From the IMG/VR virus record IMGVR_UViG_3300037809_000520, positions 1 to 64,000 of that record: a stretch of 64,000 bases of DNA; one strand, given 5' to 3'. The stretch comes from a virus. The translations under genes and the position numbers were made by a program. Below the pieces are notes generated by a model. That model saw nothing but the letters and a program-made list of their open reading frames with translations. It had not been told where the DNA came from and ran no database searches. This document shows, piece by piece, positions 3,389 to 56,062 of the stretch (the stretch's first letter is position 1; every line of letters begins with the position of its first letter).

Positions 3389-4549
3389 TTATCCTATATA
3401 AATTGGAAAAGGAACCTTGCCAAGTTCTTTTTCAATAAAATCACTTTCGGCTGCTCTTCTTTCTAATAATTTTTCTCTTGATGTTTCTCCTAAATAAGCT
3501 CTTAATCTATCAATTAGTCTTTCTTTTTCCCCGGTAGCTGCTGTAATTAAATCATTTGCGTTTAATGTAACATTATCTCCTGGGATTGGTACTACTTGAT
3601 ATTTACCTCTAACATATCCTAACATTTCTTTACATACCGCTAAGGCATACTCAAATATCCAACTTCTACCAACTGAATTAATATCATCATAATTTGGATT
3701 AGTATAAGGGACATCATAAATATTAGAAATAGTACTACTTCCTCCTACTACAAATGAAGCACTTGAACGTTCTGAATTTAGAATATATTCAAAATACATT
3801 TTATCCGGGGTTCCATCAGGAATTGGGAATAATCTTAAATTATTATTATGTATCTCAAAAGAGTAATTAGCTCTTCTAATCATATCATTAAATTCTATTT
3901 GTTGGATAATTTGCATATCAAAATTTATAGGCATTAACATATAATTAACACCTGCAGGAGAAAATTGACCCCATCCAAAGGTATCCATCATTTCTGTCAT
4001 ACCACCCCCACCTTGATAAGGATCAAAAGCTCTCATGGATGCAGGAGGTGCTTCATAAAAAACTCTCATGATTTCTATATCATGGTTTTTATAGTGAGGT
4101 ATGTTAGCTTGAGCCCATTCTTCTAGATTATAATCTTGAACGCTTTTAGTTAAGTTAATTTCACCTGTGTGCCAGTCTACATTTCCGCCTGTACCAGCTT
4201 CAACCCCATATTGTTCTGACATTTGAATTATTCTTCCTAAATTAGGAACAATAATTGTATCTTCAATATCCATAGTAGCAGCATCTGCTCCTTCTAATGT
4301 TAGATAATTATCTCTAATTTTAAATCCATATAATTCATTAGCATATATTGTTACTGCTTCTTCAAAAGCAGCATAAAAATTTAAATCTTGAAGTTCAACA
4401 TCCACAATAGGATATCCTAATCTTCGGGCCGCAAAAGTTGCAAACTTATCTGCATCTATTTGAAATTCAGGATCATTGTCATAAAACCCAAAAGGTGTAT
4501 CTCCTGGTTGGAATGAACTTGATCCGGGCCATATTGGTATATTTGCCAT
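3389..4549 (-). CDS. gp13: gp13-like neck protein
   Basis: A 386-residue protein, longer than T4 gp13 (about 309). An early segment with paired aromatic and acidic residues (LNFYAAFEEAVTIYANELYG, residues about 57-76) resembles the helical start of the gp13 family. A Gly- and Met-rich loop (about 178-190) follows. Position directly before the gp14-like gene supports a head-tail connector role. Assignment to gp13 rests largely on gene order; another connector family is possible. Confidence 0.55.
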   Translation of the reverse strand: MANIPIWPGSSSFQPGDTPFGFYDNDPEFQIDADKFATFAARRLGYPIVDVELQDLNFYAAFEEAVTIYANELYGFKIRDNYLTLEGADAATMDIEDTIIVPNLGRIIQMSEQYGVEAGTGGNVDWHTGEINLTKSVQDYNLEEWAQANIPHYKNHDIEIMRVFYEAPPASMRAFDPYQGGGGMTEMMDTFGWGQFSPAGVNYMLMPINFDMQIIQQIEFNDMIRRANYSFEIHNNNLRLFPIPDGTPDKMYFEYILNSERSSASFVVGGSSTISNIYDVPYTNPNYDDINSVGRSWIFEYALAVCKEMLGYVRGKYQVVPIPGDNVTLNANDLITAATGEKERLIDRLRAYLGETSREKLLERRAAESDFIEKELGKVPFPIYIG

Positions 4550-20986: not shown

Positions 20987-22330
20987 TTATTTTAATAATT
21001 GTTCTCCTACTAATGTTCCTTGTGCCCCCGATACTGTAATACCTCTGGCACTTAAAGCGTCACCCACAAAATGTACATTCGGATATTTTGTTAAACTTAA
21101 ATCATTATAATTAACTAGGGGTTCTGGTGATAGATATTTTACTTCTGGGATGTAAATTCCCCAATCATCTTTAAGTGTTGGAAATACTTTTTTCATATCC
21201 TCAATGAAATCTTCTATATAATCATAATAACCTTTAAATGATTTTTTAACTATATCTAAAGATTTAGTGGGCATAGCATCAACTAAATCACCTTCACTTG
21301 TCATTCCTCTTTCACGTGATGGGCTATAATATAAACCCGAATTAGCTTTACGAGCATATCTACCAATACCTTTACTACAATCCATCCATTGTGAATTTAC
21401 TAATTTAACTAATTCTCTAGACCAATCAAATGGTTTATCAATGCCTTGAATTTCCATTAAAATCCCAAAATTAGTCATATTATTTCTATGTTCTTCTCCT
21501 TTTTTAGCATGTCCATTGTAGCTAACATCTCCATACGTTTGCTCAACGGCAACATATGCTGCATTGTTGTTTGTACAGAAAGAACGTAGTGATACTCCTT
21601 TGTCTTCGAATTTACGATATAACTTAAAATCATAACTTACATCAATTAGTTTTTGGAAGTGGTTTTGTGGTGCTTCAAATCGAACACCTATTTGTACTGG
21701 CTTTGGTTCTGTAGGAAGATCATATTTTTCAGCTAATTTCTTACCGAAGTCAATTCCTGATTTGCCAACACCAAATATAAGTTTATCATATGATAAGGTG
21801 AAATTATCTACTTCACTAGCATTGGTTACCACTATTTGTGAATCAAATTTAATATCGGTTACTTTTTCTTCCCATCTAAATTCTACACCACCATCTACTA
21901 AATAATTATACCAATTTTTACCTATTTCATGTAAGTAATCTGTACCTACGTGCCATACAGGGAATAAGCGTAAGCCAAAATAGGGTTTAATAAAATCTGG
22001 TTCTGCTTGGGGGTCTGAGCATTGTACTTCCTCAGGCTTGGGATGGAATCTTTTAAAATTATTAATTACTTGATCAAATAATTCCATTGCTTTTTCATCT
22101 CCTGTGTATTTTGATAATTGACCACCAATGGATGTATGGTAAGTTAATTTACCATCAGACCAACCACCTGCTCCTAAGAAACCAGTCATTACTTCTTCAG
22201 GTTTTCTATCATATGGGTTTTTACCCATATCAATAATAGTGATATTACCTTTAAAGTTGTTATCTACAAGTTTTGTAGCGGCATTTACTCCTGCTACACC
22301 TGCTCCTACAATTACTACATTTTTACTCAT
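20987..22330 (-). CDS. FAD-dependent oxidoreductase (dehydrogenase-like)
   Basis: A 447-residue flavoprotein. The N-terminal Rossmann motif is VVIVGAGVAGVNAATKL (5-21) with the G-x-G-x-x-G dinucleotide signature, followed by an acidic residue at the end of the second strand (ITIIDMG). Near residues 50-65 GFLGAGGWSDGKL is characteristic of the NAD(FAD)-utilising dehydrogenase group. The C-terminus has NVHFVGDALSARGITVSGAQ, the usual second FAD-binding block (G-D). Cytoplasmic; substrate unknown. It starts the metabolic cluster and has a promoter-like box CGTATATTAA upstream. Confidence 0.85.
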   Translation of the reverse strand: MSKNVVIVGAGVAGVNAATKLVDNNFKGNITIIDMGKNPYDRKPEEVMTGFLGAGGWSDGKLTYHTSIGGQLSKYTGDEKAMELFDQVINNFKRFHPKPEEVQCSDPQAEPDFIKPYFGLRLFPVWHVGTDYLHEIGKNWYNYLVDGGVEFRWEEKVTDIKFDSQIVVTNASEVDNFTLSYDKLIFGVGKSGIDFGKKLAEKYDLPTEPKPVQIGVRFEAPQNHFQKLIDVSYDFKLYRKFEDKGVSLRSFCTNNNAAYVAVEQTYGDVSYNGHAKKGEEHRNNMTNFGILMEIQGIDKPFDWSRELVKLVNSQWMDCSKGIGRYARKANSGLYYSPSRERGMTSEGDLVDAMPTKSLDIVKKSFKGYYDYIEDFIEDMKKVFPTLKDDWGIYIPEVKYLSPEPLVNYNDLSLTKYPNVHFVGDALSARGITVSGAQGTLVGEQLLK

Positions 22331-35144: not shown

Positions 35145-35353
35145 AAAACTAATTTATTTAATTCTTTAATAATAACTTGTATATCATCTTTTGATAAATT
35201 ACCACCACTATACCATTGTTTTATTTGGTTTGCTAATAAATTAACATCTACTTTTATAGGCAAATCATTGGGGGTAGTAATTAGTGGGTTAGTACTTCTG
35301 GACCTTAATGATCCTTCTTTATATCCTTTTGATAAAGTATTTGATTTATTCAT
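35141..35353 (-). CDS. Small protein, unknown function
   Basis: A 70-residue protein lying between the multi-enzyme gene and the zinc-ribbon gene; its start overlaps the upstream stop by 4 bases (35350-35353) and its stop overlaps the next start by 4 bases. RSRSTNPLITTPNDLPIKVD is a likely flexible linker; DDIQVIIKELNKLVL is a C-terminal helix. The double overlap argues that it is real and translated with its neighbours. Confidence 0.55.
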   Translation of the reverse strand: MNKSNTLSKGYKEGSLRSRSTNPLITTPNDLPIKVDVNLLANQIKQWYSGGNLSKDDIQVIIKELNKLVL

Positions 35354-37908
35354 AATCCTAATGCTTTAAGTTGGTTGATTGTATCCTGGGTTGATGTATG
35401 TAATATACCAATACCCCCAGCTTCAATCCATTGTTCTATATTTGATTTTCTATCATCAATTAAAATATGGTTAGGTTCAGCATAATTCTTTTTATTATAA
35501 GCTTGGGCTAATGTTAATTTAACTCCAGGCATGTTATTTCTAACCCATAATCTTTTTCCTAATCTTGAGGTTTGTGATCTTGATGGGGATGATAGTAATT
35601 CTACATCATAATCTTTAATATAATTCCAATAGTCTTTACCATCTTCCATCCAAGGCATCCCTACCCAAAATCCAACTTTACCTTTACCATCAATTAATTC
35701 CCAAAATCCATCTTCCCCAAACTTTTTTTCATATTCTCTGGGTGGTATTCCTTTAGAGTACTTTTCAAATGATTTATCAAAATCTGTTAATACACCATCC
35801 ATATCTGAATATATTTTATATTCCATAGGGGGTGAAGATACAACCTCTTCTTCAGGTATCAAAACTCCTTCAGCAATTTCTCTAGCAAATTGATTTAAAC
35901 CAAATGGATCTTTACCTAATTTGGGATCAAATCCCTGTTTTTCATCTAAACTATCAGTCCAATTTCTAAATGTCATTGTACCTTTTAAATTAGCTTCAGC
36001 TTCAATATCATTTAACTCATCATCTTCTTGAGTATTTGTTGTTGTAATATTACCTAATCTACCTTCTAGATTTTGGGTATGATGAACCATTTCATGGGAA
36101 AATGAACGTACAATATCTTTTGGATGTCTGCCTTCAGTGTATAATACAATTGTTTGAGAATTTGGATCATAATAAGCAGTTTTACCTAAAAACTCTTGAG
36201 CATTACTACGATCACCATTTATGAATTTTAAATTAGGTAAGGGTTGAATATTCATCCCCTTATCTATCATATGCTTAGTTAATTTAGCTATCTCTTTTTT
36301 AATATCTATATTTTGAGAATATGAAGCATTTTCATTTAATGGTTTTCCTCTTTTAGAATATCTTCCTTCTACTTCAAAATTATTACTTAATGTAGACAAT
36401 ACCTCTTGTGTTTTTTGGGTTTCTCTATATAATCCCCCTGTCCAGTGATCTTTAACTGTTGAAAAACCCCAAGGCCCTCCTGCTTCTTTAATTTTATTCT
36501 CAACCCACCCACTTAAATCATAATAATTAGATTTTTGTTTAATTATAACAAATGTTTCTCCTTTTTCAAGTAAATCCTGGTCTGTTAATTGATCCATAAA
36601 ATTTTTTGCTCCCTCTAAAGTTTTTGAAAATGAGATATTTTTTCCATTATAATTTGTCCAAATATATTCTCTTAAATCTGGGATTTTGGTTGCATTCTTA
36701 ATGGATAAAATTCTATATATTGTTCCAAAATCTTTATAGCCTAATTGTTTTAATTTTAAAACAAATACTCTATTAATTGAAGAACTATCATGTACTCCTC
36801 CTTTTCCTAACCAATCTTCAACATATTTATCTAAATCTATTTCTTCATTTAAGTTTTCTTTTAAAACTGTTCCTTCAGGAAGTTCTAATGAATCAAAAAA
36901 ATCTTGAGCTATTTTTAATAGTTTTTCTTTTATTTCTGGTTTTAAATTAAGATCATCCCAAACATCTTTTACTAATGTATCTTGTATATCAAAACTATCG
37001 ATTACATCTTTTTCAATATTTTCTTGAAGAGCGATTACAGGGGTAGATGTTTTAAAATCTTTTTTACGCATTACTGTTTTTGCATACATTTCAATATCAT
37101 CATCAGTAACATTTATAGCAAATGGTATGTTTATGTTATTATTAAAATCCTTAACAACAGCATCAAAATCATCATCTATTTTAGATAGTGGTTTACCATG
37201 TTTTTTATGTAAACGTTTAAACATCCCTATAAGTTCAGCTACTGTAATTGGTTTTTTATTTCTTTTATCATTTAATCTATCTAAAAAATGCCTAGTAAAT
37301 TCAATATCAATACCCAATTTATTAAATAATCCATCAGCATATTTTTCAATTGAGTCTAATTGGGGTTTAGTAATTTCTTCTTTAATAATTGGTCTTAGAA
37401 TATTAAATACATCTTCTTTTTCTTTATCATCTAATTCATCTGGTAGGAATGGTGCTAATTCATCGGATGATACTTTGGCTGCTTTTCTAGCATTGGTACC
37501 ACTCATACCTTTATCTTGAGTAATTTGTACTTTTACTTTCATATTAGGGTAAGCTGATTCTATATTTTTAGTTCTATTTTCAATATCTTCTAAATCATCA
37601 TCTCTTCCTTCTCTTCCTCCTATAATAAAATAAACCTCATCTTCAGGATTATTTTTCCCTAAACGAATAATATCACCAATTGGTGATTCAGCAGGCTCAA
37701 TCTTAACTTTCATGGGTAAATATTTTTTAAATATATCCCAAATTAAAATAGCTTCAGCTTGACTTACCCCATTTCTTTCCTTACTTCCAACATAGATAAT
37801 AAATTCATCTATTTCAGGGAGAGATTTTAATGCTTTTTTTACTACCTCTAAATGACCTTTAGTAGGTGGTTTAAAACCACCTCCGTATGCTGCTATTACT
37901 TTACTCAT
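35350..37908 (-). CDS. Multi-enzyme protein: nucleotidyltransferase, ART-like, zinc peptidase-like, HAD phosphatase
   Basis: An 852-residue protein with several domains. (1) Residues 1-145: nucleotidyltransferase of the NMN adenylyltransferase / cytidylyltransferase type, with GGFKPPTKGHLEVVKKAL (T/H-x-G-H motif ending at His19) and the second motif GMSGTNARKAA (134-144). (2) About 385-510: IYRILSIK (Arg399), NISFSKT (Ser426-Phe-Ser) and RETQKTQEVL (Glu502), the R-S-E order of an ADP-ribosyltransferase, though the Q/E-x-E element is imperfect. (3) FSHEMVHHTQ (603-612): H-E-x-x-H zinc peptidase signature, with EAEAN downstream as a third-ligand candidate. (4) About 697-852: HAD phosphatase with SDMDGVLTDF (701-710). 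N-rich, L-N-E type junctions (PLNENAS, ENLNEEI) could be protease cut sites. The gene overlaps both neighbours by 4 bases. Confidence 0.72.
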   Translation of the reverse strand: MSKVIAAYGGGFKPPTKGHLEVVKKALKSLPEIDEFIIYVGSKERNGVSQAEAILIWDIFKKYLPMKVKIEPAESPIGDIIRLGKNNPEDEVYFIIGGREGRDDDLEDIENRTKNIESAYPNMKVKVQITQDKGMSGTNARKAAKVSSDELAPFLPDELDDKEKEDVFNILRPIIKEEITKPQLDSIEKYADGLFNKLGIDIEFTRHFLDRLNDKRNKKPITVAELIGMFKRLHKKHGKPLSKIDDDFDAVVKDFNNNINIPFAINVTDDDIEMYAKTVMRKKDFKTSTPVIALQENIEKDVIDSFDIQDTLVKDVWDDLNLKPEIKEKLLKIAQDFFDSLELPEGTVLKENLNEEIDLDKYVEDWLGKGGVHDSSSINRVFVLKLKQLGYKDFGTIYRILSIKNATKIPDLREYIWTNYNGKNISFSKTLEGAKNFMDQLTDQDLLEKGETFVIIKQKSNYYDLSGWVENKIKEAGGPWGFSTVKDHWTGGLYRETQKTQEVLSTLSNNFEVEGRYSKRGKPLNENASYSQNIDIKKEIAKLTKHMIDKGMNIQPLPNLKFINGDRSNAQEFLGKTAYYDPNSQTIVLYTEGRHPKDIVRSFSHEMVHHTQNLEGRLGNITTTNTQEDDELNDIEAEANLKGTMTFRNWTDSLDEKQGFDPKLGKDPFGLNQFAREIAEGVLIPEEEVVSSPPMEYKIYSDMDGVLTDFDKSFEKYSKGIPPREYEKKFGEDGFWELIDGKGKVGFWVGMPWMEDGKDYWNYIKDYDVELLSSPSRSQTSRLGKRLWVRNNMPGVKLTLAQAYNKKNYAEPNHILIDDRKSNIEQWIEAGGIGILHTSTQDTINQLKALGL

Positions 37909-43679: not shown

Positions 43680-46600
43680 TTACTCTATTGGATATTTTTT
43701 AGTATCATTATCTTCATCGGCTCTGAAAGCATTTTTAGCACTTAATTGATTTATTATAGTTTGTACATTTCTTTTTTGCTGAGCTGAAAAATCATTAGGG
43801 ATTAAATATCCTGATGGTGATAGGGTTTTAACTCCTTCTGAGCCTGTTGGGGCTGTTTGGTATATTACTACTCTATCATCAGCTTCAATTCTTCTTCTAA
43901 GAGTAAAATTAAAAATTTGACCTGATGGAATAGGAATATCTAAGGTTCTTGGATCTGGGTGTACCATTACTTTATCAAAAGTATGGGCAGATGCAGTCAT
44001 TCTTACAAGACTTGGTCCTCTTACCGAAACCATTGATGATTTCATAGTATCCCCATATCCATCTGGAGGGAATATAGAGTTTTCATATTCATCATTTGGA
44101 CCATTATCTGTAATAGTAAAAGTTTGAGTGTATAATCCACCCACAATAGAATTAGGTCCTACTGAGTTGTAATCTACTCTGATTTCATCTCCTACTTGAA
44201 ATAATATAGGTTGTTGGAAATCTTCAAAATTTGTAACATTATCATCACTGTTATTAGTAGTAAGTTGAAAATCTTCATAAACATAATTAGAAGGATTTGC
44301 AAAAAATGGCTCTTTAACTAATTGAATAGTATCTGCAGATCCTCCTGTATTTTTTATATTATTTGGTATTCCCGGGAGGACTACAGCTACCCCACTTATA
44401 GAAGCTGTAGAATAGATACTTCTTGAAACATATTGGTTAAAAGTATTAACCAATGCTAATCCTCTACCAGCATAACATATTGATGTTCCTAAATCTACAC
44501 TTGCACTAACCCCGAAACTTGATGACATTATTAATGATGCTCCCATCAAATATAATGAAGAATCTGTACTTCCTGTTAATAGTGAAAAAGCAGATTGGGA
44601 TTGGACCGTTGAAAATAGTACACTAGCAGTTAAATAATATGATGATGATGGTAATGTAATTGTATTAATAGCTGTCCCCGCAAGCCCATACATCCTTGAC
44701 CAACTTGAACTTACAAAACTTTGTGTAGTTGCATGGTTATTTTTTTCAATTTGGTTAGTTATTATATTTTGATATTCCATTGATCCTTGATATATCTGAC
44801 TTTCTCCTACTTTAAGTGAAGTATAATTAATAGTAGCAGAAGAACCTGATTTAGATATTTTTCCTTGGTTATAGGCTACTAATGCTTTTCTATCAACTTC
44901 AAATGTACTTCTAACTTCTGTTAAATTTTCACCACTTCCATCAACTTTAATTACAACTGGGTTTTCTGGGGCTTTTTCCCCTTGCACACTATCTAAAGGA
45001 CACTCAATAAGTTGATCAATATTAAAAGTATAACTACCCCATAATTCATTGGATTGTTTAGATGTTCTAAAATGAGCAAAATAAATAGGATGTTTTGCAA
45101 TAGTATTAACTTCTACATTTATTGAAGGCATTGAACCTGGGAGTGAATCCCCACCATAAACTGGGCTTTGAGCATAAGTATAAACTACTGGCGCACTGGA
45201 TTTATTATGAACTAATATTCCATTAGCATAATAATTATGGTTATTACTAACACTTGATAAATAGTATACAGTAGTTAATTTTATTTCGGTTGTTATCGAT
45301 GAAACTATAATATCATCCCCTTTTATATCTTGACAGATATCATTAACTTCTATTTTAGATGCTTTTACCCATCCTTTTTCTTTCACATAAAATGGGTGTT
45401 CTTCAGTAGTATTAATTATATTACCATCATTAAAAGTTATAATTATTATTGACTCGGCTTCATGAGATGATACATCACCAACAATTCCTTCTTCATTCTT
45501 ATTATCAAGTTCATTATAAGTTATAATACTTTCACCCTTTACTACATCTTCAATATTTTTAGTACTACCATTAAATAGTGATATTTGGGTTCCAGGAGTG
45601 AAGCAGAGAACAAAAGTTTGGAGAGATTGATTGGATCCCGATAATAAAGTACCAGGTACCCCCCCATTTAAATAAGCAATTTCACTTCCTGATGGTGTAT
45701 ATGAATTATAATTAGCACTTTGTAAAGTACTCCCCACATATCTTGGAAGAATTGATGATTTTTGAGTATAAAAACTATCAGGTATATCTGCTTTAATAGC
45801 TGATCCTGATATAATAGGTATTACATTTGAAGGTACACCTGATGATCCTGTTGAAGAACCTCCATCAAATTCTGCTACTTGTAAGTAAGTATTAGCTCTA
45901 CTTCCAGTAATATTATTAATTAAAGGGTTAAATGGAGAGTTATTAAATATTGTTAAATTTGGAAGTTGAGGTGATGGAGTTATATTTTGTAAACCTTGGT
46001 TTGAGGTTGGAGTAAATATAGGGGTTGATGAACCACTTAATGCTCTACTTTGTAGTTGATTATAAACCCATCCTTGTCCTACTCCTGATGTGTTTGAAAA
46101 AGAAATTTTCCCATCAATAACTGTTAAATTTTGACTAAAATAATTACCTACTAAACCATATATATCTTCTGTTGTTGGTGTGCCTGTATAATTTGGAATT
46201 TCATATGTAAATTGTTCATTAAATGCTAAAGTATCTGTATTATCTACAGGATTATTATCAGAATCATAACTAATATTATTAAATGCCGTTATTATTGGGG
46301 CATAATTACCAAAATCTCCATAAGATCCTGTCCATGTAGTTCCTACAAAAGTTGCACTACCACTTCCGGGTTTTGGGGCTGAGCCTTTAATAATCCAACC
46401 TAAAGCTTCTGAAGAAATATAATCAAAATTAGACATATATATAGGGACTGTAATTGGTCCTGTAAGAGCATCTTCATATCCTCCACCCTGTGGTATATTT
46501 TGATCTAATCTAATAACTCTAGCATTGTTTGTTGAGGGATTATTAAACCAATATTTTGTTAGTCCATATGCATTTGATCCTATATTTCCATATGCTGTAG

Positions 46601-49600
46601 CTGTGGATGCTACCTGTTTAGTAATTATATCATTTCCCCCAAAGAAGGATGAAATTAAAATATTACTATCTAAATTTCCCAATAATCCTGTTTGATCAAA
46701 ATCAACAGGACCTGTTATAGGATCAAAAAAAGTATTATTAATTGATCCTGATATATCAAATTTAAGATAAGGTCCTACATCATTAGGAACAATTTGTCCA
46801 TCTTGAATTCCAAACATACCTGATGCTGAAACTGGTGGGTGAGGAATTGCCTGTAGAGGAAGTAAATTATTATCATCATATCCTAATAAACCTGCGGGTT
46901 CATAAGATTGTGCTGCAGTATTTCCTAATACATCCATTAGAGTAGGAAGAATTAATCCTACAACCCAAAAATTATGGTTATCTAAATGAGATTGTTGAAT
47001 GAAAATAGATCCTGTTAAAGTGGAGTTTGGATTATTTGCTTCCCAATTATTAAAATCATCTTGCAATTCATCTAATTTACCGTATTCTTTTTGATTTACA
47101 ACTAAATTAAATGAAAATGAAGGATAAGTATTAATTGGAGTTCCATAAGAGTTACTCCATTGTCCTTTACTTGAGGTAATTGCTAATTTATAAGATATAT
47201 CATTTATTTCAGCTGTTGTGTAGGGATTATCTAACAGTGATTGGGTTGTAACTATTATTTCACTTCCGCTAAATTCTCCATTATAAAATTCATCCTGTGA
47301 TTTATGTATTTCATAAACACTACCAGATATAGTTTCATTTCTTACAATGTAAGATTGTGTATTAAAGGAATTCCATATACTTGATGAATATGGAATTGGG
47401 GTTGTAGGAGATCCTATAAAATCATTATTTGTGGCAGCAACTGAAGCTAAAGGTGTGAAATAAATATATGATAAATTAACAGATTTTGGGGTAGCAGGAT
47501 CTGACATTAAATCTAAACCTTTAACCCAAAATGATATGTCTTCTTCTGGCAGCATTTCATAATACGATGTGCTTGCAGGAGTGTTAATTGGAGTCAATGA
47601 AGCTGAGGATATAATATCTGTGCCTATAATACCTCTTTTTGAAGATGAAACAGCAAATTCAAACCCCTCATCATATCCTAAGAAATTAGTTGTGTTAGAA
47701 TTAAAAAATTTAAATCTTGTTTTTAAAGGTTGTTTTAATCTAATACCTTGTGTGGGTCCTGAACCAAAATTTGAATCTACTATATCTCCATAACTATTTA
47801 TTACTCCACCAGCTCTAATAAGGTTAGTGTATTGACTAGGGATATTAGTGGGTGATGTTTGTGAGTAAAACAAGAAATAAGCAGATTGAGTTACTTCAAC
47901 ATTATAAGGATCTAATACCCCACCTGTTCCTCCTCCTATAGTAGCTACATCAATACTTCCGGTAATTTCTAAATCTCTATATGAAATGGGGCTATTTATT
48001 CCTTCAGCTGTTGATTGACCCCCTACTACGGACCCCGTTTCTGGTGTGTAAGCTATTATAGTATTTGGATTAACTTTTACAGGGACGCGGCGATTGCGCT
48101 CCAACATATGTTGTTTAATTATAACACCTGTAGTTACGCTAGTACGTGCTGGAACATATGATTTAATGGCTTTAAATAATGAATTATCAAAATATTTAAT
48201 TAATCTTAAATAATCCCAAACATCACCTTCTGTATATTTTTTAAAATATTCGTTTGCAATTTGTCTTAATTTTGGATAATAAGACTCTGTTGAATCATAA
48301 GCAAATCTAGGATCTGCTAACACATCAGAAATAACACCATATCCATAAGTTGCTATTATATCATCATTAACCTCGTCTTGAGGTGAAAAACCTACTTCTA
48401 GACTTGTTATATCCTCAGTATAACTCTGACTTATTAAATAATCTTGATCTATACTTCTATATTTAGATAATACTGTACCATAATCCTCACCATCATTAAC
48501 TTGAATTTTATTTGAAATTCTATTTCTAATACCAATTGCTGGTTGATCTAAAAAGTAAGTTTCTACATTAGGTTTACTATATGTGTAGATTGATGCTGCC
48601 TCATATCCTATAAAATCATAACTTGAAGTTAAAGCACTAGTAGCAGGATCAATAAATGATTGGGTAAATATCATAGGTGCTGAGCCTGTTATTGCAGGGT
48701 GTGAAGATGATATTAATGTTGTAAAAGATTGACTTATAGATGATGTAAATTTATATTCTAGCTCATTACCCAAAGGAGCTCTAAAATTAACTATATCAAA
48801 TGAAGATTCAGACCCTGTAACATTATTACCCTCAACAGACTCTGGATTCATTACAAAATCATTAAAGGTTTCTTTTGAAATATTATTTGAATAATATCTA
48901 AATTCTTGAAAGGATCCTGAAAATATTTTAGCTCCTTCATTTAATACCTCAGACATTACATCTGAACCAGACACATATCCTCCTACATAAACTCCATCAA
49001 TATCAGATACCCCAAATCTATTCCATGATTCATTTATAGAAGGTGAACTTGCTGAAGGATCATCATATATTGTACTATTATATGTTCCCCCTCCATATCC
49101 TGAATTAAAAGCTACATTAGCTGAACTCATACTCACTGATCCTGACCACCCTAATGAATTACCATCCCAACCATCTACTTGCTTATTAGCCGCAAATAAA
49201 GTATAGGTAGTAGCATCCGCACTATCGTTAGTATGAGTATCTCTTTGTAATAATACACTCCACCAACCCCCATCAAAGAAGGGTAAGGAAATATCATTTG
49301 ATATTTGTACTCCTCCATCTGCTGTTGAAGCAGACATATAAAATCTTAATTTACCATAATTGTAATAATCACTAAAACTAGATCCTGAATATGATCCTGA
49401 TGGTTGATCTTCATAAAATAAACCAATCCCCCAATCCATTTGTTTGTCATTAGTTCCATTTGATTTTTTAACAGCTAATGATTGACTATAAAATTTACCC
49501 CCATAACTTGATGAAGGATGACCTGTAGTTTTAAATCTAAAAGCAACACCATCTGGTACTATATACTCATTGTCCGCTATTTTGTTACGTTGTAATGGCA

Positions 49601-51677
49601 TCCATGGTACTTTAACCGATGAACTTGCCATATATTGACTAGCAACTGGGGTATACGCGTAACTATAACGTTTATACCATAAGTCATAATCATCCGAGTT
49701 GTCTTTATTTTTACCCCCAAATTCATTAATTCGAAGAATTGTATTTGGAACACCCCAAATATTAATTAATTGTCTTAAACCACTAATTGTACCTTTTTTC
49801 TTAGTAAGATAAGCCATATTATGATAAAGACGTTTGTAAATTTCTTTACTTACTTTATCAATAGCATAAGGCCATCCAGGTTCATTTATCTGTTCAACAT
49901 AATTAAGCCATGAATATCCTAAATTCCAATAATTTATAATTTGACCATTATTTACAGCTATATAATCTGTAATTAATTCACTCCCTGTTGGGGGTACATA
50001 GATTCCATTATCCTCACCTGTTAAACCTATAAAATTATCTTGGTTATCATAATTATTTCCAAAAGTTTCAAATCCTAAACCTTTAATAGCTTCTGCCGCT
50101 AAATCTAAAGGTAAACCTGATTCAGGATCGTTTGTTGTATTATATCTTTCACTTAATGCTCTAGTATATAACCATACTTCATCAAATGATTGACCTACCA
50201 TATTTGAAAATTCTACATATTCATCATTATCTGAATTTTCAGTAATAAAAGTTGGTATTGTATAATATAACCAATTTTGATTATCCTCATCATATAAAGA
50301 AGCTGATAATTTATATCCACCATAATATTGAGTATTTTCAACATCACTACCCACCCATGTTAATACTTCAGTACTCCCTGTTGCTAGAAGAGTATAAGGA
50401 TATGAAGATCCTGTTTTAGGGTATGCATATGATGATGATTCATGATAAAGATAACTTTCATACCCATCAAAGTTTTTAACTAAGTTTGTTATGTTAGTCT
50501 GTAAACTTGCTAAACTTTGAGATATTTCTGTTACATTTGGGTTAGAACCAGTTGTTAATATAATAGCATTAATATCTGATTGATATGATTGTATTTGGGA
50601 TACTTTTTCATAAAAATTATTAATTCTTTGCTTTGCTGATGAGAAGTTAATAAATTCATTAAAAGTATTATATGAATAATTGGGGGTAATTGTTACTCCC
50701 GTTTTATTTAAATGATTTAAAACATTATCTAAAGATTTTGATGATGGGGTTGAAATTAAATCATCATAAGATTTTAAAGTAGTTGAATTATTAATTAAAT
50801 CTTGAAGGGGGATATTAACATTAGGGCCCTTAATGTAGTTAGCATTATCTATAAATGATGAAAAATCTTGAATAAATTCAACTTTATAAGCTATAGATTC
50901 TCCCACTTTTGTAACAACATACGATAAATCATCTACTTTATATTGTTGCGGGAGAGGATCGAATAGTTTGATTAAAACTGATGGAGTATCTCCATCACTA
51001 TCAAGTATAATATTAATAGCAACTACATAATTATTTTCAAATAATCCAATATAAAACTCATCAAAATATTCTGATGAATTTAATTTACTATTTAAATTGA
51101 TAAACCCTTGCTTTATATCTGTTGTAGGGATAGTATTAGAACTTAATCTAATTTCTGTTCTGTCCCCGGATATTTCTGATATATAATAATTTTTTTCTAT
51201 TGATGAATTTAATTCATAATTGATAAAATTATAAAACGCAAAAACTTCTCCATTATCAAATCCTCTATTATATAAATCTGTTGTTGGAGAAATTGTAATT
51301 TCATTAGTTGGTATTACATTAATTTCATCCGGACTTTCAATAAGACCCGCATCATTAGTAAATTCTGTAGATACATCTGGGTTGGATGTGTTGTTTGTTA
51401 TACTCCAATCAGTAAAATTATAATCTTGACTAATTAGTGATTTTTGAGAATCATATACATAAAATTCAATTAAACTCCCACTTTGAAAAAAGGATCCTGA
51501 TATGTTTTCATTAGGAATTATTTCAGAATTAGCAAATTCATACCCTGTACTGACTATTTCACTAGCTGGTATTGAGGTACAAGATGCACTAATATTAATA
51601 CTATTATCATCAAATAATGGTACTAATGGGTCTTCGGTGTTAGGGTTGAAATTTATGTATGTATCGTTACTTTCCAT
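43680..51677 (-). CDS. Giant baseplate wedge-type protein (gp7-like) with LamG and Hint domains
   Basis: A 2665-residue virion protein, the largest in the window, lying where gp7 is expected. N-terminal part: extended, Asn/Ser-rich. Residues about 610-655 (KRLYHNMAYLTKKKGTISGL, GVPNTILRINEFGG) are the segment I associate with phage baseplate wedge proteins. About 705-950 is a LamG/concanavalin-like beta sandwich (FRFKTTGHPSSSYGGKFY, GGWWSVLLQRD). A Hint domain occupies 2025-2158 (see separate entry). The last 500 residues are Ser/Thr-rich. It is expected to link the hub to the fibres. If Hint cleavage happens, the N- and C-parts would separate. Confidence 0.75.
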   Translation of the reverse strand: MESNDTYINFNPNTEDPLVPLFDDNSINISASCTSIPASEIVSTGYEFANSEIIPNENISGSFFQSGSLIEFYVYDSQKSLISQDYNFTDWSITNNTSNPDVSTEFTNDAGLIESPDEINVIPTNEITISPTTDLYNRGFDNGEVFAFYNFINYELNSSIEKNYYISEISGDRTEIRLSSNTIPTTDIKQGFINLNSKLNSSEYFDEFYIGLFENNYVVAINIILDSDGDTPSVLIKLFDPLPQQYKVDDLSYVVTKVGESIAYKVEFIQDFSSFIDNANYIKGPNVNIPLQDLINNSTTLKSYDDLISTPSSKSLDNVLNHLNKTGVTITPNYSYNTFNEFINFSSAKQRINNFYEKVSQIQSYQSDINAIILTTGSNPNVTEISQSLASLQTNITNLVKNFDGYESYLYHESSSYAYPKTGSSYPYTLLATGSTEVLTWVGSDVENTQYYGGYKLSASLYDEDNQNWLYYTIPTFITENSDNDEYVEFSNMVGQSFDEVWLYTRALSERYNTTNDPESGLPLDLAAEAIKGLGFETFGNNYDNQDNFIGLTGEDNGIYVPPTGSELITDYIAVNNGQIINYWNLGYSWLNYVEQINEPGWPYAIDKVSKEIYKRLYHNMAYLTKKKGTISGLRQLINIWGVPNTILRINEFGGKNKDNSDDYDLWYKRYSYAYTPVASQYMASSSVKVPWMPLQRNKIADNEYIVPDGVAFRFKTTGHPSSSYGGKFYSQSLAVKKSNGTNDKQMDWGIGLFYEDQPSGSYSGSSFSDYYNYGKLRFYMSASTADGGVQISNDISLPFFDGGWWSVLLQRDTHTNDSADATTYTLFAANKQVDGWDGNSLGWSGSVSMSSANVAFNSGYGGGTYNSTIYDDPSASSPSINESWNRFGVSDIDGVYVGGYVSGSDVMSEVLNEGAKIFSGSFQEFRYYSNNISKETFNDFVMNPESVEGNNVTGSESSFDIVNFRAPLGNELEYKFTSSISQSFTTLISSSHPAITGSAPMIFTQSFIDPATSALTSSYDFIGYEAASIYTYSKPNVETYFLDQPAIGIRNRISNKIQVNDGEDYGTVLSKYRSIDQDYLISQSYTEDITSLEVGFSPQDEVNDDIIATYGYGVISDVLADPRFAYDSTESYYPKLRQIANEYFKKYTEGDVWDYLRLIKYFDNSLFKAIKSYVPARTSVTTGVIIKQHMLERNRRVPVKVNPNTIIAYTPETGSVVGGQSTAEGINSPISYRDLEITGSIDVATIGGGTGGVLDPYNVEVTQSAYFLFYSQTSPTNIPSQYTNLIRAGGVINSYGDIVDSNFGSGPTQGIRLKQPLKTRFKFFNSNTTNFLGYDEGFEFAVSSSKRGIIGTDIISSASLTPINTPASTSYYEMLPEEDISFWVKGLDLMSDPATPKSVNLSYIYFTPLASVAATNNDFIGSPTTPIPYSSSIWNSFNTQSYIVRNETISGSVYEIHKSQDEFYNGEFSGSEIIVTTQSLLDNPYTTAEINDISYKLAITSSKGQWSNSYGTPINTYPSFSFNLVVNQKEYGKLDELQDDFNNWEANNPNSTLTGSIFIQQSHLDNHNFWVVGLILPTLMDVLGNTAAQSYEPAGLLGYDDNNLLPLQAIPHPPVSASGMFGIQDGQIVPNDVGPYLKFDISGSINNTFFDPITGPVDFDQTGLLGNLDSNILISSFFGGNDIITKQVASTATAYGNIGSNAYGLTKYWFNNPSTNNARVIRLDQNIPQGGGYEDALTGPITVPIYMSNFDYISSEALGWIIKGSAPKPGSGSATFVGTTWTGSYGDFGNYAPIITAFNNISYDSDNNPVDNTDTLAFNEQFTYEIPNYTGTPTTEDIYGLVGNYFSQNLTVIDGKISFSNTSGVGQGWVYNQLQSRALSGSSTPIFTPTSNQGLQNITPSPQLPNLTIFNNSPFNPLINNITGSRANTYLQVAEFDGGSSTGSSGVPSNVIPIISGSAIKADIPDSFYTQKSSILPRYVGSTLQSANYNSYTPSGSEIAYLNGGVPGTLLSGSNQSLQTFVLCFTPGTQISLFNGSTKNIEDVVKGESIITYNELDNKNEEGIVGDVSSHEAESIIIITFNDGNIINTTEEHPFYVKEKGWVKASKIEVNDICQDIKGDDIIVSSITTEIKLTTVYYLSSVSNNHNYYANGILVHNKSSAPVVYTYAQSPVYGGDSLPGSMPSINVEVNTIAKHPIYFAHFRTSKQSNELWGSYTFNIDQLIECPLDSVQGEKAPENPVVIKVDGSGENLTEVRSTFEVDRKALVAYNQGKISKSGSSATINYTSLKVGESQIYQGSMEYQNIITNQIEKNNHATTQSFVSSSWSRMYGLAGTAINTITLPSSSYYLTASVLFSTVQSQSAFSLLTGSTDSSLYLMGASLIMSSSFGVSASVDLGTSICYAGRGLALVNTFNQYVSRSIYSTASISGVAVVLPGIPNNIKNTGGSADTIQLVKEPFFANPSNYVYEDFQLTTNNSDDNVTNFEDFQQPILFQVGDEIRVDYNSVGPNSIVGGLYTQTFTITDNGPNDEYENSIFPPDGYGDTMKSSMVSVRGPSLVRMTASAHTFDKVMVHPDPRTLDIPIPSGQIFNFTLRRRIEADDRVVIYQTAPTGSEGVKTLSPSGYLIPNDFSAQQKRNVQTIINQLSAKNAFRADEDNDTKKYPIE
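45204..45605 (-). other. Hint (intein-like) domain inside the giant wedge protein
   Basis: Residues 2025-2158 of the giant protein. It begins CFTPGTQISLFNGSTKNIED (nucleophile Cys2025), has the block B motif NTTEEHPFYV (T-x-x-H), KGWVKASKIEVNDIC, and ends NHNYYANGILVHN (His-Asn at the C-terminus). At about 134 residues there is no room for a homing endonuclease. The residue after Asn is Lys rather than Cys, Ser or Thr, as in bacterial-intein-like (BIL) type domains rather than standard inteins, so cleavage may dominate over splicing. Confidence 0.85.
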
Positions 51678-53792: not shown

Positions 53793-55655
53793 TTATAATG
53801 GAACTACTCTACCTTTAATATCAGTATTAGGATATTTTACTTCAAATATCATAGGATCAATTGAAGGATATACTACATCATTTACAGTTGCTCCAGGAAT
53901 ATCATAAGCATAAGCACTATATCCTAAAGGTACTCCAGTTAAATTATTTACTGTTACATTTTTTACTGTTTGAACTCCTTCTACTTTATCTAAAAGAATA
54001 TATAAATTATTAAGTAAAATAGGTTGATTTATTTGCCAATTATCTATAGCAAAGAAATTAGTTAAGGATTCAATACATTTAGTAATAGTTTCATTGTTAT
54101 TATAATTAGGTAATACTATAATATCAAATATTACTTCTATATTAATAATAAAAGCATCTTTAATTTTAATAGAATCATTAATCATTCTATACTCAGCTAA
54201 ATATGTTTGTAAATTTTGTTTCATTAATGATGATGCTGTTCGCAACTGACTATTAGCATTATAAGTTAAAACATATAAGTCTAATATCGTAGGTAATTCA
54301 CCAGGTTGAAATTCATTAATTTTAACAGGAGCTGCATATGCCTTTGCTATAGTTCCTAAATTAGAAGGCATAGATAAAGCTCTTATTAAGTAATCTTCTT
54401 TTGTTACAGTACGTAGTTGGTTTTGGAAATTACCAACCGCATTTAATCTTAATTCTTCAACAGTATCCCCATCTTGCCCTCCATCAGCTGCTAATTCATT
54501 ATTTGAAGAAACTGAATTAAATATTTGGTTTGCGAGTGCTGTATCTGGGAGATTTGGGTTAACAAATTTAAAATTAGTATCATTTAATACTGTTAAAGTT
54601 CCGGCTTCAACATTAGACTTAACTCCTCCTCCAGTTAAATACCTAAAATTTAAAGTTGTATTATATGGAGCAATACCATAAGTATTTGTAAATATAAAAT
54701 TTAAAGGAGAAAAAGCAGTTGTTAATTGATCTCTTTCAAAAGGTAAACCTAAACCTACATTATCAGGATTAGGTACTATTTCTTCATCATTATTTGTTGT
54801 GGCTCCCGCCCCAAATTGGAGTTGGAGAGAGCCTGAATCTGTAAATCTTGTAACAAATCTTCTTTGAACTTGTTTTAATCTAAGTAAATATGGAGCATCT
54901 TCTTCTATATTGAATTGTGGGTCGTTGGTGTTTGTGTTTCTAATAGTATCATATACGTTTTCTTGAGCCATATTAGGCACCTCATACCAAGTATTACCAT
55001 CTATATCAACACAATCTAAAATACCTATAATATTAGTATCTTTAATATTTCTTTCATCAAACCTTTTTGAGGCATTAAATGAAAAAGAAGTTGTATTAAT
55101 TGTTGCAGATATTGCTTTTCTTGTTTTTTTAAGGAGAAAGTATGTTGGATTATCTCCTGATATTTGGTAAACAGTTGTTGTTGTAGGATTTAATGATCCT
55201 GATGAAGAGAAATCAATTACATCTTCTATTAAAAATTTCATATTACTATCTAAATTAGATGTAATTTGTGTATTCTCTGGTATGATCATAGCATAATTAT
55301 AATCAGGAATATACTCACCACCGCTAAATTTAGCAGGTACTTGTTGGTAGAAATCAATATTTACACTTGCAGCTGTTGTTACTTTTGGTTCATACCCTAA
55401 AAGATAAGCCATTTGGTATAAATTTTCTTGCTGTCGGGCTTTTTGGATAAAAGTTTCCTGTATTTGGTTGTCTAAGTAAAAGGATAATACATCCCCAACA
55501 TAGGAAGCCATTTCCATAAATAACATACCTGTAGAAGTATCAGTAAAATCATTATAGGTATTTGGGAAATATGTTTTTGAATATTGTATTAAAGAATTTC
55601 TAAATTGGTTGAAATCTTTATTAATATATCTTATGTCTCTTTTTAAATCTGCCAT
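53793..55655 (-). CDS. gp6: Baseplate wedge protein, gp6-like
   Basis: A 620-residue wedge protein of the T4 gp6 / gpJ family. The first 100 residues (IRYINKDFNQFRNSLIQYSK, then FTDTSTGMLFMEMASYVGDV) are the classic gp6 beginning, with FYLDNQIQETFIQKARQQENL and AYLLGYEPKV. The centre is beta-rich; the C-terminal part has a typical LYVLTYNAN and VEGVQTVKNVTV segment. It builds the inner ring of the baseplate. It overlaps the gp25-like gene by one base. Confidence 0.9.
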   Translation of the reverse strand: MADLKRDIRYINKDFNQFRNSLIQYSKTYFPNTYNDFTDTSTGMLFMEMASYVGDVLSFYLDNQIQETFIQKARQQENLYQMAYLLGYEPKVTTAASVNIDFYQQVPAKFSGGEYIPDYNYAMIIPENTQITSNLDSNMKFLIEDVIDFSSSGSLNPTTTTVYQISGDNPTYFLLKKTRKAISATINTTSFSFNASKRFDERNIKDTNIIGILDCVDIDGNTWYEVPNMAQENVYDTIRNTNTNDPQFNIEEDAPYLLRLKQVQRRFVTRFTDSGSLQLQFGAGATTNNDEEIVPNPDNVGLGLPFERDQLTTAFSPLNFIFTNTYGIAPYNTTLNFRYLTGGGVKSNVEAGTLTVLNDTNFKFVNPNLPDTALANQIFNSVSSNNELAADGGQDGDTVEELRLNAVGNFQNQLRTVTKEDYLIRALSMPSNLGTIAKAYAAPVKINEFQPGELPTILDLYVLTYNANSQLRTASSLMKQNLQTYLAEYRMINDSIKIKDAFIINIEVIFDIIVLPNYNNNETITKCIESLTNFFAIDNWQINQPILLNNLYILLDKVEGVQTVKNVTVNNLTGVPLGYSAYAYDIPGATVNDVVYPSIDPMIFEVKYPNTDIKGRVVPL

Positions 55656-56062
55656 TATTGTAGTAATATAGTTATATCATCAGTTATCCCAAAGTTTGCT
55701 ACAGTGTATGTTAATGTAAAATTAATTGTATTTCTATTGGGGTCATTATCAAATTTTATTTCTTTAACATCTACTTGAGGGAAAAAGATATTAATATCAT
55801 TTTGTATCCTTTCTTGTAATTCGTCTGTTGTACGATCTAATACATTTTCAAATATTAAATTTCTTAGATCAGCTCCAAATGTAGGGTTAAATACTCTTTC
55901 TCCTCTATTAGTAAGTAAGTAATTAATTAAATTTGATTTAGTTTGTTCTCTTGTTGTATAAGTAGGCACAAAAACAGCAGGCCCATTTAAGGGAAACCCA
56001 AACCCAACAGCTTTGCGGCCTATTGAGTCAATCGGGTATCTGTTTTGTATAATTCTTGCCAT
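55655..56062 (-). CDS. gp25: Baseplate wedge protein, gp25-like
   Basis: A 135-residue protein of the gpW/gp25 family. RYPIDSIGRKAVGFGFPLNG near the start, then QTKSNLINYLLTNRGERVFN and PTFGADLRNLIFEN, are strongly conserved family blocks. Length equals that of T4 gp25 (132). It is a component of the baseplate inner ring and a nucleation point for the sheath. It overlaps the gp6-like gene by one base, the usual order 25-6. Confidence 0.93.
   Translation of the reverse strand: MARIIQNRYPIDSIGRKAVGFGFPLNGPAVFVPTYTTREQTKSNLINYLLTNRGERVFNPTFGADLRNLIFENVLDRTTDELQERIQNDINIFFPQVDVKEIKFDNDPNRNTINFTLTYTVANFGITDDITILLQ

Follow-up and report, generated by a model that had tools for sequence, protein, structure and literature searches.

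A bacterial-intein-like Hint domain followed by a fixed lysine in a giant virion protein gene of a virus with T4-type head genes

The stretch of DNA analysed here (the window, 64,000 nucleotides) is part of a 67,258-base virus record and encodes a protein of 2665 aa (ORF 43680-51677) in which residues 2025-2158 constitute a complete Hint domain of 134 residues, far from a chance match. Judged by every sequence feature tested, it would be classed as a bacterial-intein-like (BIL) domain, of ordinary fold. It is preceded by 2024 residues and followed by 507, the first of which (the +1 residue) is Lys2159. We lean towards reading it as a member of a Lys(+1) subclass of A-type BILs, one that processes its own host chain, most likely by scission into chains of 2024 and 507 residues. 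The parts of the domain and its linkers are located as follows.

45204..45605, minus strand: Hint/BIL domain, residues 2025-2158 (Pfam, PDB profile, AlphaFold2 and Foldseek).
45603..45605, minus strand: Cys2025 (Cys1), the predicted thioester former, invariant in both alignments described below.
45396..45407, minus strand: block B, Thr2091-Glu-Glu-His2094; its Thr (Thr67 of the domain) and His (His70) are invariant in both alignments.
45204..45209, minus strand: block G, His2157-Asn2158, predicted C-terminal cleavage residues, invariant.
45201..45203, minus strand: Lys2159 (+1), Lys in 6/6 distinct alleles and the commonest +1 residue among 138 clusters of the matches listed.
45606..45641, minus strand: N-side linker, residues 2013-2024 (SGSNQ and variable residues), from the allele alignment.
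45147..45200, minus strand: C-side linker, residues 2160-2177, hypervariable up to a common GD, from the allele alignment.

A sequence-only reading of this DNA had placed here an element with a Cys start, T-x-x-H, a His-Asn end and a Lys next, and the ORF translation and Pfam showed its coordinates and motifs to be exact (C1FTPGT...T67EEH70...LVH133N134, then Lys). Two Pfam families matched the domain, PT-HINT (E 1.6e-12, 48.3 bits, cut-off 27.7) and Intein_splicing (E 1.6e-10, 41.4 bits, cut-off 35.8). When a profile of 16 Hint sequences was compared with the PDB, it matched the BIL2 chain 6y75_B (1.8e-23) and CthBIL4, 2lwy (6.7e-22). The AlphaFold2 model of the domain had a pLDDT of 96.9 and a pTM of 0.89, and with this model Foldseek gave 2lwy (E 1.8e-12, TM 0.92, rmsd 1.3) and, as the second-best fold match, 6tmm (E 1.2e-11, TM 0.91). 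By sequence and by fold, the nearest solved relatives are the BIL domains 2LWY and 6TMM/6Y75 (Tetrahymena BIL2). Cys1, Thr67, His70, His133 and Asn134 were invariant in an alignment of five giant-protein alleles and in a 16-row alignment. The earlier assignment to BIL-type Hint domains agrees with these results: a +1 Cys/Ser/Thr is absent, the catalytic residues are conserved, and BIL structures are the nearest.

The record has head genes of the T4 type, with matches to Gp23 (E 2e-76), the Gp20 portal (E 3.1e-64) and the T4-type terminase (E 5.2e-13), and the giant gene lies downstream of gp25-like and gp6-like genes, with three genes between.

43680..51677, minus strand: gene of the giant virion protein (2665 aa) that contains the Hint domain (ORF; position after the gp25/gp6-like genes; relatives of 2000-3000 aa).
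47958..50780, minus strand: conserved core of the host protein, residues 300-1240 (identity by segment; dN/dS 0.09-0.18 in three full-length pairs).
53793..55655, minus strand: upstream gp6-like baseplate wedge gene (phrog_219, E 1.1e-14).
55655..56062, minus strand: upstream gp25-like baseplate wedge gene (PF04965, E 4.7e-11).

The slot after gp25 and gp6 is what we take to be the gene-7 position in the T4 gene order, and a relative of 1265 aa in Flavobacterium phage immuto also lies downstream of annotated baseplate assembly and baseplate wedge genes. None of the 14 members scanned had a PHROG match in the conserved core, and the conserved N-terminal core gave a single, chance-level match in the PDB (E 0.048). 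The name baseplate protein, proposed from the sequence, is therefore one given by position: gene order favours it, here and in immuto, but the core has no convincing match in the PDB or PHROGs. Identity by segment shows strong conservation of residues 300-1240 and a variable C-terminal half of the protein; dN/dS was 0.45-0.62 over residues 1240-1950, compared with 0.09-0.18 in the core (three pairs with full data). An AlphaFold2 model of host residues 1930-2664, made from an 8-row alignment, reached a mean pLDDT of only 32.6.

Used as queries, the C-terminal part and the core of the protein found 88 ORFs, which represented 47 distinct sequences with the flanking region. Eight of the 47 carried the Hint domain, two of these (L001 and L029) being the window's own sequence; with the window excluded, there were 7 distinct Hint bearers among 46 relatives, and the domain was absent from the other 39. 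Two bearers, L017 and L020, differed in the compared part only at the second residue after the Hint domain, so we counted six clearly distinct alleles. Where readable, the Hint-free loops were short and variable (SGSWGGD, SGSIWEGD, ESNQTNPRSPYWIGD). In the bearers, SGSN and about 6 to 8 residues came before the domain, and Lys with about 13 to 18 residues separated it from the common GD. The Hint domain is inserted in a loop of variable length, with hypervariable linkers around it. Since these linkers are longer than the Hint-free loops, exact excision would leave a scar of about 20 residues and would not restore the host sequence, as excision of a standard intein does. This, together with the 39 of 46 relatives that are Hint-free, indicates that the domain is not a standard intein. 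According to passages of PMC7765530, PMC5874633 and PMC4031507, BILs are located in variable regions of non-conserved proteins, and those of the A-type mainly cleave; insertion in a variable loop with about 20 extra residues fits this description.

A tree built from 45 C-flank rows, six of them with Hint, placed the bearers in two groups that needed 2 changes, and they may have a single origin of the domain. Each of three records of ~164 kb contained exactly one Hint domain. The Hint alleles were ~50-58% identical to each other with all catalytic residues kept, and four allele pairs had Hint dN/dS values of 0.28, 0.28, 0.38 and 0.50. The C-flank values were 0.22-0.45, which indicates purifying selection on the Hint domain about as strong as on the C-flank; its dN/dS was not below that of the surrounding variable module. 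Among isolate phages, a search with the window Hint found one weak partial match and a search with the C-terminal part found none, while two other domains ending in His-Asn-Lys matched 7 and 3 records, all at <60% identity. A natural split of the gene at the Hint site was sought in two relatives whose protein is spread over two ORFs, L201 and L238; the breaks lie elsewhere and lend no support to two chains. In L201 the frame changes far upstream of the Hint site. In L238, a Hint-free relative, a single in-frame stop (3599-3601), either a true stop or a sequencing error, lies ~25 residues past the site.

His-Asn-Lys was found in all six clearly distinct alleles, and none of them had the Cys, Ser or Thr that a class 1 intein carries at +1. 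Most linker positions varied across the six alleles; after the domain, every position up to the common GD varied except Lys +1, and no further Lys occurred among their 51 N-side and 94 C-side linker residues. The codon of Lys +1 was AAA in every allele and so holds no codon-level evidence on this residue. As it alone is fixed among the residues after the domain, Lys2159 probably serves a purpose of its own, in the chemistry or in positioning.

To place this residue in a wider context, we used Hint relatives collected with a profile whose last position is Asn, which left the +1 residue free of selection. The best 80 of 162 and the best 80 of 270 relatives were taken, so the sample leans to kin of the query. 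From all loci gathered in the analysis up to that point, 224 distinct full-length domains of phage and prokaryote sources were kept, all ending in His-, Ser- or Ala-Asn (Asn by construction; other ends and duplicates were dropped), and these formed 138 clusters at 60% identity among the matches listed. Among these clusters, Lys was at +1 in 62, Arg in 8, Cys/Ser/Thr in 24 and other residues in 44, against a background Lys frequency of 5.8%; at +2 and +3, Lys was present in 17/127 and 4/123, respectively. An earlier relative set, likewise limited to the matches listed and clustered by single linkage, gave Lys as the modal residue in 36/102 clusters at 50% identity but in only 7/38 at 40%, where Cys came first with 16. 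On a poorly resolved Hint tree, the Lys/Arg label needed 22 changes compared with 46.4 in shuffles; the label is thus passed on by descent, and the clusters do not count as independent. Among the matches listed, the Lys/Arg(+1) domains kept Cys1 in all filled cells, the Thr in 93% and the block B His in 99%. The sequence-only reading had treated Lys as standing in the place of the required Cys, Ser or Thr; this nucleophile is indeed absent, but it is not merely missing, since Lys is invariant at the site and, across a wide subclass, occupies +1 more often than any other residue.

The Lys(+1) domains also differ in their position within proteins. The median number of residues after the domain was 25 for Lys/Arg, 139 for other residues and 311 for Cys/Ser/Thr among the matches listed; in the same matches, 30 distinct domains were followed by three residues or fewer, 24 of them with Lys at +1 and 18 with an exact His-Asn-Lys end. 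An internal Hint domain in a giant protein is therefore unusual for the Lys(+1) subtype. Hint matches were found in 7 of 149 genomes from the family of Flavobacterium sp. LMO8 (the genome of L161) and in 17 of 395 genomes of a phylum-wide sample. Seven matches of the LMO8-family sample ended in His-Asn: three with Lys and one with Arg at +1 were all near the C-terminus, and the other three, with Asp, Gly or Gln, were followed by ~90-120 residues; an eighth match did not end in His-Asn. Lys(+1) thus sets a subtype apart from the toxin-type HINT domains. Two simple accounts of the lysine were discarded. Lys and Arg are destabilising N-terminal residues under the N-degron rule. As a general account, an N-degron is at odds with the 18 of 30 C-terminal domains that stop at His-Asn-Lys with nothing after it, and Leu, Phe, Trp and Tyr jointly occupied just 7/138 of the +1 positions (both among the matches listed). 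Nor is Lys merely a frequent last residue, as it ends 8.9% of 1490 long ORFs of the loci as opposed to these 18 of 30.

Among known systems, the domain resembles the A-type BIL CthBIL4 of Clostridium thermocellum (2LWY), with which it shares the fold (TM 0.92), the Cys1 block, Thr-x-x-His and the terminal His-Asn. It has the Hint fold, the N-terminal Cys, block B and a His-Asn without Cys/Ser/Thr at +1 that characterise A-type BILs, as well as their location in a variable region; it differs from them in its fixed Lys +1 and in lying inside a phage virion protein, and excerpts of PMC7765530, PMC4031507 and PMC5874633 make no mention of Lys +1 for A-type BILs. BIL2 of the Tetrahymena thermophila BUBL1 locus (6TMM, 6Y75) is the best profile match (fold TM 0.91), but it is flanked by ubiquitin-like domains. 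According to part of PMC8616854, BIL2 ligation involves a lysine, and the window Hint has its fixed Lys +1. BIL2 has two zinc ligands, H48 and H125; in an alignment by eye, the window Hint keeps a His in place of H48 but has Tyr115 where H125 would be, and the other alleles lack His48. A BIL2-like zinc switch was rejected, as its ligands are not conserved. The mini-inteins Ssp DnaB (1MI8) and gp41-1 (6QAZ) share the Hint fold (TM 0.87 and 0.79), Cys1 and His-Asn, whereas the window Hint has no Cys/Ser/Thr at +1 and no exact insertion site. Pretoxin HINT of polymorphic toxins (PF07591) is the best Pfam family, but the window Hint has no toxin tip, and the toxin-type HINTs sampled mostly have other +1 residues. 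The Hedgehog autoprocessing domain (1AT0) shares the Hint fold (TM 0.69) and, like many relatives ending in His-Asn-Lys, is C-terminal; in contrast with the window Hint, it uses a cholesterol acceptor and has no His-Asn at its end.

From these likenesses, a course of self-processing can be proposed. Once the host chain has folded, the acyl group of Leu2024 would be transferred to Cys2025, forming a thioester, aided by Thr2091 and His2094, as in the chemistry of the family. Asn2158 would cyclise with the help of His2157, so that the C-terminal part would be freed and begin with Lys2159, and the Cys2025 thioester would then be resolved. The most likely net outcome would be that the chain is cut into parts of ~2024 and ~507 residues and the domain of 134 residues is set free. 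As reported in part of PMC4031507, thioester formation and Asn cyclisation need Cys1, Thr-x-x-His and His-Asn, and A-type BILs without Cys/Ser/Thr at +1 mainly cleave, or splice through the freed alpha amine. Scission is our first expectation because the normal branched intermediate cannot form without that residue and A-type BILs then mainly cleave; for a BIL-type Hint domain that lacks it and keeps its catalytic residues, self-processing into ~2024 and 507 residues would be a reasonable prediction. As the Hint-free relatives have a plain continuous loop at this place, the two parts probably remain together in the particle after the cut. The further suggestion of the sequence-only reading, that a conditional cleavage controls assembly or firing of the baseplate, found no support: with 39 of the 46 distinct flank-bearing relatives free of the domain, Hint is no general requirement of this baseplate.

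The continuous chain of the 39 Hint-free relatives counts against scission and fits instead a ligation. Here Lys2159 would attack the thioester at Cys2025, either through its side-chain amine or, once Asn has cyclised, through its alpha amine; the domain would be expelled and the two flanking parts linked again, by an isopeptide bond or an ordinary peptide bond. The invariance of Lys in the six alleles, among variable linker positions with no second Lys, exceeds the need of plain cleavage, which hints that it may serve ligation; Lys at +1 in 62/138 clusters among the matches listed points the same way. The alpha-amine route is the one proposed for A-type BIL splicing in part of PMC4031507. The fold neighbour BIL2 is described in part of PMC8616854 with an isopeptide bond and a nucleophilic lysine of ubl5, which makes the fixed Lys our main reason to doubt scission, although the BIL2 lysine may not be its +1 residue. 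Against ligation, and among the matches listed, Arg, a poor nucleophile, takes the +1 position in 8/138 clusters, 18 of the 30 C-terminal domains have nothing left to join, and short C-terminal parts (the Lys/Arg median of 25 residues) are typical. Arg at +1 and the domains that stop at His-Asn-Lys speak for a charge or positioning role of this residue instead, and we hold ligation to be a serious but clearly less probable reading than scission. A covalent cross-link in trans, in which the amine of another virion or host-surface protein resolves the thioester, seems very improbable; BIL2 is described in part of PMC8616854 as joining ubl4 to different substrates, and Lys(+1) domains are often at protein ends and occur in tail-tip-like and RHS-like proteins, but no partner or acceptor site was identified.

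That the domain is an inert or nearly inert passenger, a folded extra surface module in a loop that undergoes no processing, is also unlikely. It would agree with the variable loop length among relatives, with a dispensable domain, and with a Hint dN/dS that resembles that of the surrounding variable module; the retention of all catalytic residues at ~50-58% allele identity argues against it, as does that of Cys1, Thr and His in Lys/Arg(+1) domains at large (among the matches listed). We give hardly any weight to a standard intein or to a HINT of the polymorphic-toxin kind, which would release a toxin from the C-terminus. The names of the Pfam matches, PT-HINT and Intein_splicing, point to them, but every allele has Lys at +1, and the insertion lies in a hypervariable loop with residual linkers and without the exact site. 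No toxin domain comes right after the HINT, and the 507-residue C-terminal part, also kept in Hint-free relatives, would thus be a regular part of the protein and not an exchangeable toxin tip.

Hint domains are already annotated in phage proteins of public sets, so that their presence alone is not new; what appears to be new in the sequences compared here is a Lys +1 that is fixed at the site and commonest in relatives, and the location in a virion protein. The literature searched, which included part of PMC3482391, gave no description of a Lys(+1) Hint class, and the original BIL papers may describe one. A bolder proposal, which we consider rather unlikely, is that Hint domains ending in His-Asn-Lys form a widespread class in which the +1 side chain accepts the Cys1 acyl group, to give an isopeptide-branched product or, if the domain is C-terminal, a Lys-capped N-terminal part. 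If the side chain is the acceptor, this phage virion protein would have a branched backbone. If the fixed Lys takes part at all, many phage and bacterial proteins would use a Hint chemistry foreign to standard inteins, and a reactive Lys might offer a one-component isopeptide ligation. If it is not reactive, the virion proteins probably still cut themselves, and their annotated length would not be their length in the particle.

Several related proteins deserve mention. Phage proteins of ~905-915 aa that start with (M)KGTLFSADF (L003:7615-10353, L004:214-2958, L012:7609-10350, L036:4691-7405) have three tandem terminal Hint domains; in the first three, these are spaced by two residues (HN-RA-C, HN-KA-C or HN-KF-C) and the protein ends in His-Asn-Lys. 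By eye, a degenerate extra Hint may sit upstream in these proteins. An ORF of 1917 aa that runs to the contig edge in a Thermoplasmata archaeon MAG (L166) has 9 tandem Hint matches, mostly with Thr at +1. Other phage proteins (L064:4755-5849, L043:179-1417, L040:2-1261) combine a glycine-rich stretch with a Hint domain and His-Asn-Lys near the end, and that of L064 weakly matches the baseplate hub N-terminal domain (PF09931, E 1.2e-4, below the cut-off). Flavobacterial proteins (L112, L115, L129, L131, L161, L164) end in a Hint domain, His-Asn-Lys and a few residues; several of them look RHS-like by eye, and L112 has one weak RHS_repeat match. Elsewhere in the window, positions 35350-37908 (minus strand) encode a fusion protein of 852 aa whose C-terminal part matches a 5'-3' deoxyribonucleotidase (E 5.3e-25) and whose N-terminal part weakly matches a cytidyltransferase, and positions 20987-22330 (minus strand) a 447-aa FAD/NAD-type oxidoreductase (Pyr_redox_2, E 1.4e-9).
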